A DNA stretch of 35,576 nucleotides from Acidimicrobiaceae bacterium (GTDB taxonomy: Bacteria > Actinomycetota > Acidimicrobiia > Acidimicrobiales > RAAP-2), in assembly GCA_003134515.1 (NCBI GenBank), contig PLBM01000102.1, positions 7,105 to 42,680 of the forward strand, read 5' to 3'. Under the pieces are notes generated by a model, which saw only the letters and a program-made list of their open reading frames with translations, had not been told where the DNA came from and did not search any database. Position numbers and translations under genes: made by a program. Numbering within the stretch: position 1 is the stretch's first letter; every line of letters begins with the position of its first letter. Below, one piece after another: positions 30,439-33,403 of this stretch.

Positions 30439-31068
30439 TTACTTTGCGCGTGCCAGGCCCACGGCCTCCCAGCAGTACCACGCCACGTCAGAGCGAACGC
30501 CAGCGAAGACGTCGCCTTCACTTCGCAGATCTCTCTCGCTGATGAGTTCGTCGAGTTCGTGCACGATCGACCAGCCATTGCGCACGCCAAAGTCGCCCGC
30601 CGGCCACACGTCGTGGCGCGCCAGGGTGTGCATCAAGTACATCTGCGCGGTCCAGGGACCCACGCCACGCACGGCTACCACGTCGACAAGGACGTCGTGA
30701 TCGCTCATTTTGCCGTGTCGGGCCAATTGAATGCGTCCGTCAAGGGTGCGCGCGGCCAAGTCCAACATCGCGGCCGCTTTCGCGTTCGACAGCCCGACAG
30801 CGCGCAATCTCTCATGACCCGCGCTCGTGATCGTTTCGGCGCTGACGGTGCCGTCGCACAGGTCGATCACGCGCTGGTGAATCGTATTGGCCGCCTTGCC
30901 CGCCAGTAGCTGGTAGGTGATCGAACGGGCCAATGTTGGAAAGCGTTGCGCGACGGCGGCACTGCGCCGAGGCGGCGGCGGACCCACTTCCTTGATGAGT
31001 TTCTTAAAGGCTCGGTCACGTTTCACGATCGAAGCAGCGATCTCTTGGCGCGACAAGGGTGCGGGCAC
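30439..31068 (-). CDS. DNA-3-methyladenine glycosylase II (AlkA-like)
   Basis: 209 aa HhH-GPD DNA glycosylase. The helix-hairpin-helix is VAVRGVGPWTAQMYLMH (131-147) and the catalytic Asp is Asp159 in WPAGDFGVRNGW. No Cys4 iron-sulphur cluster is present, consistent with AlkA rather than Nth/MutY. It excises alkylated purines in base-excision repair. The GTG start is seven bases after the lysR stop. Confidence 0.92.
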   Translation of the reverse strand: MPAPLSRQEIAASIVKRDRAFKKLIKEVGPPPPRRSAAVAQRFPTLARSITYQLLAGKAANTIHQRVIDLCDGTVSAETITSAGHERLRAVGLSNAKAAAMLDLAARTLDGRIQLARHGKMSDHDVLVDVVAVRGVGPWTAQMYLMHTLARHDVWPAGDFGVRNGWSIVHELDELISERDLRSEGDVFAGVRSDVAWYCWEAVGLARAK

Positions 31069-31075
31069 CCTATGA

Positions 31076-32005
31076 CTATTGCAGAGAAGTCGCCGAGGGC
31101 AGGTAGACGCCTTGGGGCACGTTCGTGGCGTTCGCGACGACGTCGAGTAGCAGCGCGTGGATGGCCCTTACTGGCGCCGCGGGAAAGCCGAACTGCCGAG
31201 TCGCGAGAACGACGCGCCGTTTGGCGATGTTTTCGATAGGTAAGGCCACGAAGTTGGCTCGAAGGTGAGGTGACAACATGGTGGCCGGCAAGATTGATGG
31301 TCCGTGGCCGTCGAAGGTCATCGACGCGATCGTCCGGATGCCGTCCAATTCGATTGAGGGGTTCAACTCAACACCAACTTGGTGAGCCGCTTCGTCGATC
31401 TCGCGGCGAATGGGCGTGCCGCGCATTGGGAGAAGGATCTCGTAGTGGGCGAGGGTTGAAAAAGAGAGGGGACCCTTCAGCTGGGCGAGGGGATGATCGC
31501 GCGCGGCGATCACGACGAGATCTTCTGTAAAGAGATCGACCTCGGTGAGTTCATCAGCTTTGACGGGCCACGCGAGTACCGCCAGGTCGAGTTGGCCGTT
31601 GACGAGGCGCGGCTCGAGCGCCGAGTTGGTTCCTTCACTTATTTGAAGGTTTATATGCGAGTACCGCTGTCGCAAATTCTCCAGTAGTAATGGCACGATC
31701 CAGCGCCCCGCCGTGCCGATCATCCCGAGGGTCACTTGACCGTAGATGTCCGCGTTGAGTTCGGAAACGTCCGAAGCGATCGCGCGTAACTCAACAAGAA
31801 TTCGCTGCGCGCGCCCTACAACAATCGCGCCTGATTCGGTCAAGTTTCCCGTGGCCCGATCGACCAACTCAGTGGCGAGCTCGCGTTCCAGTCGGGCCAC
31901 GCGGTTCGAGATATTGGACTGCACGGTGCCGAGCGCCTCAGCGGCGCGAGAGAAGGTGCCGTGTTCACTAATGCTGATCAAGGCCTCTAACTGGCGAAAC
32001 TCCAT
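31076..32005 (-). CDS. LysR-family transcriptional regulator
   Basis: 309 aa from ATG 32005; a frame open to 32323 runs through the small RNA and is not coding. Winged HTH at 1-60 (MEFRQLEALISISEHGTFSRAAEALGTVQSNISNRVARLE), linker helix, then a periplasmic-binding-type effector domain (about 90-295). It heads the operon with alkA, the M20 peptidase and dsbA. A TATAGT -10 lies exactly six bases upstream of the ATG, and an ATAC-N9-GTAT inverted repeat overlaps it, a typical arrangement for autorepression. The effector is unknown; targets may include the divergent small RNA. Confidence 0.92.
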   Translation of the reverse strand: MEFRQLEALISISEHGTFSRAAEALGTVQSNISNRVARLERELATELVDRATGNLTESGAIVVGRAQRILVELRAIASDVSELNADIYGQVTLGMIGTAGRWIVPLLLENLRQRYSHINLQISEGTNSALEPRLVNGQLDLAVLAWPVKADELTEVDLFTEDLVVIAARDHPLAQLKGPLSFSTLAHYEILLPMRGTPIRREIDEAAHQVGVELNPSIELDGIRTIASMTFDGHGPSILPATMLSPHLRANFVALPIENIAKRRVVLATRQFGFPAAPVRAIHALLLDVVANATNVPQGVYLPSATSLQ

Positions 32006-32011
32006 GTATCT

Positions 32012-32031
32012 ACTATACAGATGTAAAGTAT
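32012..32031. promoter_or_regulatory. lysR leaderless promoter and probable LysR operator
   Basis: TATAGT on the minus strand (32012-32017) is six bases from the lysR ATG. ATAC-N9-GTAT at 32015-32031 overlaps it and is a LysR-type box by geometry. A partial direct repeat (TAGTAGA/TAGTAGAGATAC) is also present. The box lies 14 bases upstream of the -35 of the rightward small RNA, so it could control both. Confidence 0.5.
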
Positions 32032-32044
32032 CTCTACTATTCGC

Positions 32045-32073
32045 TTGCCAGATACTTGTTAGAACGCCATACT
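32045..32073 (+). promoter_or_regulatory. Promoter of the 6C-type small RNA
   Basis: TTGCCA (32045-32050), 17 bases, then CATACT (32068-32073). Spacing is optimal and would start transcription at about 32080, just before the C-rich hairpins. Found by eye. Confidence 0.55.
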
Positions 32074-32079
32074 GATGGA

Positions 32080-32160
32080 AGCCTGCTTTACTCAAACCCC
32101 CCCATTGAGTAACACCAAGGTTTTGTAAAAGGACCAACCGCCCCCCGGTTGGTCCTTTTG
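32080..32160 (+). ncRNA. 6C-type small RNA
   Basis: About 80 nt, non-coding. Two hairpins both have C-rich loops. The first is TTACTCAA (32088-32095) / TTGAGTAA (32105-32112) with loop ACCCCCCCA (seven C). The second is AAAAGGACCAACC (32127-32139) / GGTTGGTCCTTTT (32147-32159) with loop GCCCCCC (six C), which doubles as the intrinsic terminator. Two stem-loops each with six or more C is the definition of the actinobacterial 6C RNA. In mycobacteria 6C RNA is reported to regulate messages by pairing its C-rich loops with G-rich sites. It lies between leftward lysR and rightward murT, with its own promoter. Confidence 0.85.
32127..32159. terminator. Rho-independent terminator of the 6C RNA
   Basis: Perfect 13-bp stem with a seven-base C-rich loop, an A4 run opening the 5' arm and a T4 run closing the 3' arm. 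It can act in both directions, and it separates the small RNA from murT, which starts 30 bases later. Confidence 0.85.
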
Positions 32161-32188
32161 CCGCATAGGTGTTGTTAGCGTTGCGCTC

Positions 32189-33403
32189 ATGCCACTCGGG
32201 TCTTCTTTTCGCCTCCACGTCGCCCGGAGAGCCGTTGTTAAGGTCAATTTCCTTTCCCGCCTCATTTCTCGGGGCTCGGGAACCGTCATTGGCGGACGAA
32301 TCGGACTCGCTCTCGCCCCTCAACTCTTGGCGTATCTCGCCCGGGAGCGAGACGTGATTCTGGTGAGCGGTACGAACGGTAAAACGACGACGTCGGCCAT
32401 GATCGCCGCAGGGTGGGGCGGGGCCGTGGCGACCAATGACACCGGTTCGAACATGCCTGCCGGGCTCGTCGCGGCGCTCGCGGCGAACAAGAGTTCTTCG
32501 GCCGTACTCGAAGTTGACGAATCGTGGCTCGCGCAGGTCTCAAAGTCGACCAGCGCAGGCGTGATTACGTTGTTGAACCTTTCGCGGGATCAGCTCGATC
32601 GCGCGAACGAGGTACGCCAAATCGCCGAAAAGTGGCGCGTACTGCTCGCGAGCGCGAATGAGACCGAGGTCGTCGCGAACGCGAACGACCCCTTGGTCGT
32701 GTACGCCGCGGAGCTCGCGACAAACGTGGCCTGGTGCGACGTACCGACGCCGTGGACGACCGACGCCGTTTCGTGCCCTCACTGCACTCAGTCCCTTCAC
32801 TTCACTGATGATTCATGGTGGTGCGACTGTGGTTTCGCCAAACCGACAACCGCGGTGACGGTGCTTCGCGACGGGCTGGTCGTGCGCGGTACACGGCTCG
32901 AGCTCGACTTGAAACTGCCGGGTGAGTTCAATCGGGCCAATGCGGCCATGGCGCTGACCGCACTCTCGCTCGTCAATGCCGATTTGACAGGGGCATTGAC
33001 GAGAATCAATGCCCTGGCGAGCGTGGCCGGGCGCTTTAGCCTTCGTCGTTGGCGGGGCCATCGCGTTCGCCTCTTGCTGGCTAAGAATCCGGCCGGTTTC
33101 GCGGCCATGCTCTCGACACTCGAGCGCGACGACTCAAACGTATGGGTCGCCATTAACGCGCGTGTCGCCGACGGTCATGACCCTTCGTGGCTGTACGACG
33201 TGCCCTTTGAGTTGTTGATGGGTCATCGAGTGTTCTGCTTCGGAGAACGCCGACTTGACCTAGCGACGCGACTCGATTACGCGAACGTCGACTACGTCGT
33301 GGTGAGCGACGAATCGCTGATTCCAGTGTCGCCTGATCCGATCTCGCTACTGGCCAACTACACCGCTTTTCAAGAGTGGCGAGAGAGGTCGAGCGTGTGC
33401 TGA
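32189..33403 (+). CDS. murT: Lipid II isoglutaminyl synthase, Mur-ligase subunit
   Basis: 404 aa. With GatD it amidates the D-Glu of lipid II to D-isoglutamine at the cytoplasmic face. The ATP-binding motif is VSGTNGKTTT (59-68), a middle domain contains a Cys-rich insert (Cys196, Cys199, Cys212, Cys214), and the C-terminal DUF1727 domain has ADGHDPSWLYDVPFELL with Asp337 near the expected catalytic acidic residue. The insert normally has two CxxC pairs; here the second is CxC (WWCDCG). The ATG is preceded at seven bases by TAGCGT, so this too may be leaderless. It overlaps gatD by seven bases. Confidence 0.93.
   Translation: MPLGSSFRLHVARRAVVKVNFLSRLISRGSGTVIGGRIGLALAPQLLAYLARERDVILVSGTNGKTTTSAMIAAGWGGAVATNDTGSNMPAGLVAALAANKSSSAVLEVDESWLAQVSKSTSAGVITLLNLSRDQLDRANEVRQIAEKWRVLLASANETEVVANANDPLVVYAAELATNVAWCDVPTPWTTDAVSCPHCTQSLHFTDDSWWCDCGFAKPTTAVTVLRDGLVVRGTRLELDLKLPGEFNRANAAMALTALSLVNADLTGALTRINALASVAGRFSLRRWRGHRVRLLLAKNPAGFAAMLSTLERDDSNVWVAINARVADGHDPSWLYDVPFELLMGHRVFCFGERRLDLATRLDYANVDYVVVSDESLIPVSPDPISLLANYTAFQEWRERSSVC

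Follow-up and report, generated by a model that had tools for sequence, protein, structure and literature searches.

The window analysed here, a stretch of 35,576 nt, carries a short element in which two perfect hairpins expose runs of cytosines, flanked on one side by a divergent lysR gene and on the other by murT. The features of the locus are the following.

31076..32005, minus strand: lysR, 309 amino acids, divergent partner of the RNA gene (PF00126 and PF03466)
32028..32055, no strand assigned: inverted repeat GTATC-N18-GATAC (AAGTATCT/AGATACTT when extended), candidate LysR operator
32045..32073, plus strand: predicted sigma-70-type promoter of the RNA, TTGCCA-N17-CATACT, from a motif scan and kept in relatives
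32080..32163, plus strand: putative small RNA gene of about 80 nt, from its match to covariance model R1 and from covariation
32088..32112, plus strand: hairpin 1, stem TTACTCAA/TTGAGTAA with 8 perfect pairs, loop ACCCCCCCA with C7 at 32097-32103
32113..32126, plus strand: linker, with GGTTTTG at 32119-32125 (each column at least 90% conserved in the genus alignment)
32125..32161, plus strand: hairpin 2, terminator-like, 13 perfect core pairs AAAAGGACCAACC/GGTTGGTCCTTTT and two closing pairs
32189..33403, plus strand: murT, downstream neighbour outside the RNA unit (PF08245 and PF08353)

The 5' end of the RNA is placed from the -10 hexamer and its 3' end from the terminator-like hairpin. The loops hold C7 in hairpin 1 and, within GCCCCCC, C6 at 32141-32146 in hairpin 2. 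The element (32080-32163, plus strand) scores 87.1 bits with R1, a model that we built on this element and whose training set includes the window sequence, and its minimum free energy of -39.1 kcal/mol compares with -18.2 +/- 3.0 kcal/mol in dinucleotide shuffles (z = -6.9; none of 200 as low). A preliminary description of this locus had reported two adjacent perfect hairpins with seven and six consecutive C between lysR and murT; the position is correct, and sequence, fold energy and the covariation reported below all bear out the hairpins. The same description called hairpin 2 a classical terminator, which holds in part. The hairpin is terminator-like, but its only U run (UUUU) sits within the stem, so that in the window it lacks textbook terminator status, and it is absent from the output of a terminator scan of the window sequence. 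In many relatives a T run is added 3' of the hairpin (for example ...TTTTGTGTTTT), and a terminator role therefore remains likely.

No ORF of at least 60 amino acids crosses the element on the plus strand. On the minus strand the element is spanned by an open extension of the lysR frame (415 amino acids from a TTG) and overlapped by a 65-amino-acid ORF. Homology to other lysR genes starts at the inner ATG, not at the TTG of the 415-amino-acid frame, and loop and stem lengths differ by single bases among relatives; both observations argue against the element being coding, in agreement with the earlier statement that no protein-coding frame explains it.

The lysR gene is probably transcribed without a leader, from a TATAGT at 32017-32012, six bases before its ATG. 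Its product is a full-length member of the LysR family with zero cysteine and is therefore not a thiol sensor of the OxyR kind. By sequence, its nearest relatives of solved structure are a Rubisco-operon regulator (E = 2.7e-21) and peroxide-response activators (E = 4.4e-20), and the protein falls below the cut-off in all 25 NCBIfam matches listed of 50, the best being CynR with 144.6 of 277 bits. Matches at E <= 1e-40 occur in 199 of 248 genomes of the order, one per genome among the matches listed; at E <= 1e-45 they occur in 14 of 198 genomes of the phylum, all 14 within the class.

Conservation within the genus

At E <= 1.7e-5, blastn finds the element in 70 of 172 genomes of the family (its own included), all of them in the window's genus, a recurrence that sets it apart from chance; further genomes of the genus give no blastn match at this threshold. 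The lysR gene lies divergently beside the element in all 70. Loss of the C-rich loops at homologous loci had been named in the preliminary description as evidence that would tell against it; two runs of at least five C are retained at 69 of the 70 homologous loci, the exception being L066.

In an alignment of 70 non-identical sequences (without the duplicates L008 and L068, and with L089 and L093 in addition), 92.6% of the cells are paired and 18 of 26 pairs show two-sided changes, while hairpin 2 has 100% of its cells paired and two-sided changes in 7 of its 15 pairs; the structure having been named by hand and the sequences refitted to R1, these counts lean towards the structure, and shuffled and slid alignments serve as their control. 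The covariation score is 0.378; the shuffles give 0.168, with none of the 500 as high, and the slid controls no more than 0.087. Not one of the 500 shuffles reaches any of five structure measures. RNAalifold run on a MAFFT alignment did not fold hairpin 1, where that alignment is out of register. An exact pattern drawn from the linker and hairpin 2 was also found in 39 stretches of a named genome collection. Nearly all of these bear the title Acidimicrobiaceae, Acidimicrobiales, Actinomycetes or uncultured actinobacterium, and palsa, bog and fen are among the isolate names; the two exceptions, titled Acidobacteria and Saccharibacteria, are perhaps mislabelled bins.

TTGCCA-N17-CATACT, which had been proposed to start the RNA just before the hairpins, is indeed present there and is the sole sigma-70-like site in 31000-33000; because 0.6 such sites are expected by chance, the match taken alone means little. 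A -35/-10 pair recurs in 70 of 70 genus relatives, with a spacing of 17 in 64 of them, by a permissive pattern that we wrote after seeing the sequences. The right half of the inverted repeat at 32028-32055 overlaps the -35 region, at the site of a box, CTGTT-N-GACAGAT, found throughout the order. Both half-sites, GTATC and GATAC, are exact in 25 of the 70 genus sequences and are thus kept less strictly than the order-wide box; covariation of their outer bases within the genus is not significant (Fisher p = 0.18).

Measured from the start of the element match, the murT match begins 66-180 nt downstream in 63 of the 70 genomes and 317-750 nt downstream in the other seven. Outside the genus murT also lies downstream at L096 and L103; in other genera the downstream gene encodes a HAD-acyltransferase at L100, L106, L108 and L109 and is a HAD gene at L104. 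In the window murT is preceded by TTGTTAGCGT (32172-32191), in which a TAGCGT, kept in most relatives, stands 7 bases upstream of the start codon and resembles the -10 hexamer expected for a leaderless transcript.

These comparisons support a putative independent small RNA gene, led by a conserved promoter of its own and made up of two C-loop hairpins, the second terminator-like.

Pairing with lysR across the order

Over 395 genomes of the class, R1 gives a match at E <= 0.1 in 50. Sixteen matching loci (L094-L109) and 20 further stretches were inspected, weaker matches in G194, G228, G484, G211, G266, G322, G479 and G483 being set aside. Outside the genus, 13 of the loci have a divergent lysR homologue (L094, L096, L100, L101, L103, L104, L106-L109 and L178-L180). 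Eight matches, one in the window's genus (L183) and seven outside it (L177, L181 and L184-L188), were rejected as false positives for their low scores, the lack of a C-loop pair and their resemblance to ordinary terminators.

The converse search started from the regulator. C-loop hairpins were sought with our own script (loops of up to 16 with five or more C, on stems of five or more unbroken pairs) in nt 40-300 of each lysR 5' stretch. On the strand divergent from lysR, such a hairpin is found in 80 of 99 regions, with two or more in 51 and three or more in 15. The 99 regions (30 loci of the order-wide LysR search, 60 from about every second further row listed there and nine from the phylum search; six in the genus) cover part of the 199 lysR-carrying genomes of the order and favour the better matches. 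On the opposite strand the count is 8 of 99, and in a far window of equal length 5 of 98, with no region showing two or more in either control; over 400 nt, two or more hairpins occur in 46 of the first 90 regions, as against 2.7 of 90 expected in mononucleotide shuffles. By this detector 17 of 84 non-genus regions lack a C hairpin, and 7 of the 17 still have a box-like match. One region scored as hairpin-less, L219, has C-loop hairpins just below the thresholds, and at L347 the detector finds one hairpin, to which inspection by eye adds a bulged second.

The CTGTT-N-GACAGAT box lies over the -35, at up to 4 mismatches, in 69 of the 84 non-genus regions. Hairpins occur in 62 of these 69 and in 5 of the 15 without the box (Fisher p = 1.3e-5, for related genomes that are not independent and against a background in which 20% of shuffled stretches show the box at up to 4 mismatches). 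Boxes with at most 3 mismatches number 61, and 48 of them stand at 33 or 34 nt from the lysR start. By eye, the order regions share one layout: the lysR ATG, a GAT...TATC-like dyad and a box close to AACTGTTGGACAGAT over the -35, followed by a -10 such as CATACTGG and two or three C-loop hairpins. From position, conservation and co-occurrence, we infer that LysR controls the RNA promoter. This order-wide pairing with lysR, with a conserved operator-like box on the promoter of the small RNA, is the main point of the locus, and the preliminary description missed it.

C loops also occur away from the regulator, as 11 copies in ten loci without lysR. One is L099; the other ten belong to five genomes of a single family, f42, as multi-copy RNAs (two at L169, one each at L098, L171, L172, L105, L174, L175, L176 and L182), and we count their separation from lysR in favour of an action of the RNA in trans. 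CTATC...TTGAC...GATAG-like sites lie upstream of the copies L174 and L176, as if LysR controlled them in trans. Among the lysR 5' regions of f42, five of the seven seen have neither box nor hairpins (L220, L221, L233, L270 and L271).

The number of hairpins varies as well. Families of the order have three C-loop hairpins (up to four by the detector) instead of two, as at L104, L106, L108 and L180 by eye and at L225, L227, L236, L252, L255, L265, L266, L274, L277 and L351. In these three-hairpin families the first loop is often GGAUCCCCCCUCCGG-like and contains CCUCC, the anti-Shine-Dalgarno core. In genus g33 of family f6 (L229, L235, L247 and L253) the RNA is missing and the box, where any trace of it is left, is degenerate (for example AACTGTTACAACGAT), an apparent decay of the lysR/RNA pair. 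In another order of the class, CTGTTGGACAGAT stands upstream of a lysR relative at L346, with no C-loop hairpin by the detector.

Relation to 6C RNA

The preliminary description assigned the element to the 6C type, proposed a scan with the Rfam 6C model and counted the lack of a model hit among the observations that would speak against the assignment. The known 6C RNA consists of two stem-loops with typically six C each (PMC4046766), and the element likewise has two stem-loops with about six C each. This plan is the part of the assignment that stands; family membership is the part that falls. None of 4227 Rfam 15 models reaches its gathering score anywhere in the window, and the 6C model (RF01066) gives no match even at E <= 10 in a 301-base stretch around the element; its best score in the same genome, away from the element, is 17.4 bits. 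At the cut-off of 47 bits, RF01066 matches none of 148 genomes of the class and, as a positive control, 12 of 296 genomes of the phylum, searches of more than 40 genomes having used stricter filters. Weaker matches in eight of the 148 (L072-L079) were rejected as 6C genes, as they look by eye mostly like GC-rich terminators and have neither lysR nor murT. At L012, positions 2550-2601 give a sub-threshold Rfam match to the C/D-box RNA sR45 (29.6 of 40 bits), probably by chance.

A true but strongly diverged orthologue of the actinomycete 6C RNA, moved beside lysR, would share just this order of parts, with two hairpins, two C loops and the terminator last. Corynebacterium glutamicum, which carries a known 6C RNA (PMC4046766), was matched by RF01066 only below the cut-off, so that the cut-off can miss a real 6C and may miss diverged ones. 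In the reverse direction, R1 matches the exact site in 16 of 20 loci found with the 6C model (11 of the 12 above cut-off) at 15.8-25.7 bits, with a best E-value, rough as these are, of 4.8e-5 for 61.5 kb. The distant member L106 reaches 40.9 bits with the 6C model, the best of 20 loci scored; yet it scores as high with the alphaproteobacterial families ar7 (42.2 bits) and ar14 (40.0 bits), all three below cut-off, so that C-rich loops as such account for at least part of these cross-hits. The neighbourhood, judged by lysR alone, also differs from that of known 6C genes: this lysR is found in the 1.5-kb flanks of none of the 20 6C-model loci, 12 of them above cut-off (best tblastn E = 0.82), and all its matches at E <= 1e-45 among the 198 phylum genomes fall inside the class. 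With no model match in the window, its genome or the 148 class genomes, and with lysR absent from the 6C-model loci, we rejected 6C membership; descent from 6C is an unlikely account of the element, if one that keeps some weight. By the tests used, the element follows a 6C-like plan, probably with a 6C-like function, without being a 6C member.

Proposed function and comparison with known systems

Covarying structure, C loops, a promoter-like sequence, the order-wide link to lysR and the box that accompanies the hairpins are the computed part of the picture; what we infer is that the RNA is expressed and controlled by LysR, that it pairs with its targets and represses them, and which targets these are. 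We consider it rather likely that the element encodes a LysR-controlled, trans-acting small RNA of about 80 nt whose C loops mask G-rich ribosome-binding sites. Its promoter, with the -35 embedded in a LysR-type operator, would drive transcription in the direction divergent from lysR, and LysR together with a small-molecule signal would switch the RNA on or off. Folding would give two hairpins, or three in the order's other families, with loops holding runs of 5-8 C, the last hairpin also terminating transcription. The exposed C runs would then pair with G runs at or beside the ribosome-binding sites of target mRNAs and block translation, by analogy with B11/6C. In the published accounts, either C loop of Mycobacterium abscessus B11 pairs with G tracts in 5' UTRs and represses the targets, with loop and compensatory mutants as evidence (PMC10470900), and in Mycobacterium marinum the terminator loop of B11 acts beside ribosome-binding sites (PMC12395582).

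Candidate targets were sought in the same genome, where G6-N3-11-ATG occurs 56 times (overlaps counted), as against 35 for the reversed pattern. Thirty of the 56 places were inspected, and real-looking starts, named by sequence appearance, include those of an amino-acid permease, an ABC substrate-binding protein, cytochrome oxidase subunit I and a DegV-like gene. All seven orthologues of the permease (L309) have G5-7 immediately upstream of the start, the gene being present in only 7 of 46 genus genomes. The DegV-like gene has 43 matches; in 19 of the 30 loci inspected it keeps a run of at least five G, which may reflect no more than ordinary variation of the Shine-Dalgarno sequence. As targets of the RNA, these G-run genes are suggestive leads.

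CsrB acts as a sponge on CsrA, and the C loops might similarly titrate a C-binding protein instead of pairing with mRNAs. Two to three single-stranded C loops per RNA, and several copies in one family, would suit such multivalent capture; the best-studied look-alike, B11, works by base-pairing (PMC10470900, PMC12395582), and we regard a sponge as improbable. Least probable of all, and very unlikely in our view, is that the element has no function as a free RNA and acts only as a terminator, in one or both directions, or as a murT leader or attenuator: hairpin 2 is terminator-like and ends 27 bases before a murT that follows closely in 63 of 70 genus genomes, but we rejected this reading since murT is displaced in the other seven and replaced by another gene in five other-genus loci where promoter, C loops and lysR persist, since in most relatives it has its own conserved TAGCGT -10-like motif, and since a terminator needs neither hairpin 1, nor two conserved C loops, nor a dedicated promoter.

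With a LysR-controlled C-loop RNA as the preferred reading, the locus would represent an RNA gene conserved across the order beside its LysR-type regulator, a putative new family and a new combination of known kinds of parts. Our search of the open-access literature found no description of such an RNA, nor of a trans-acting small RNA of this actinobacterial group. Trans-acting small RNAs of actinobacteria are poorly known. If the reading is true, an RNA family spanning an order is joined to the gene of its own regulator, which would allow signal, control and targets to be studied in one system, and the family bears on whether the 6C/B11 mode, C loops acting on G tracts, arose more than once.

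The nearest likeness is to 6C/B11 of mycobacteria, corynebacteria and Streptomyces, which shares with the element two C-loop hairpins of which the last is, here probably, the terminator, a length of about 80-100 nt and a gene of its own; pairing with G tracts is shown for B11 and, by analogy, probable here. The element differs from 6C in that the 6C model does not find it, its GGTTTTG linker is conserved, a divergent lysR adjoins it, the number of C hairpins is two or three depending on the family, and it occurs, as far as sampled, in the window's class only.

Among alphaproteobacteria, ar7, ar14 and CcsR1 (Rfam) are small RNAs with C-rich loops. The distant member L106 cross-matches the first two below their cut-offs; these RNAs belong to another phylum, the scores lie below the gathering scores of their families, and we know of no LysR link for alphaproteobacterial C-loop small RNAs.

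In gene layout the counterparts are enterobacterial. In oxyR/oxyS, by gene layout and operator positions, a LysR-type regulator gene stands divergent from the small RNA gene that the regulator activates. The gene of GcvB is likewise described as divergent from the LysR-type regulator gene gcvA and activated by GcvA (PMC12101431). The present locus is alike in that a LysR-family gene diverges, conservedly, from a putative small RNA gene with a conserved dyad near its -35, as in a pair of the gcvA-gcvB type. It differs in that the RNAs are unrelated and the LysR protein is not an OxyR-type thiol sensor. Going further, we hold open, at slightly less than even confidence, that this is an ancient module found throughout the Acidimicrobiales: a single-copy LysR-type regulator with a divergent C-loop RNA that gained hairpins (from two to three) and in one family became detached from lysR as several stand-alone copies with operator-like sites. 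Such a module would be an actinobacterial counterpart of gcvA-gcvB with an independently evolved 6C-like RNA, possibly controlling nutrient transporters.
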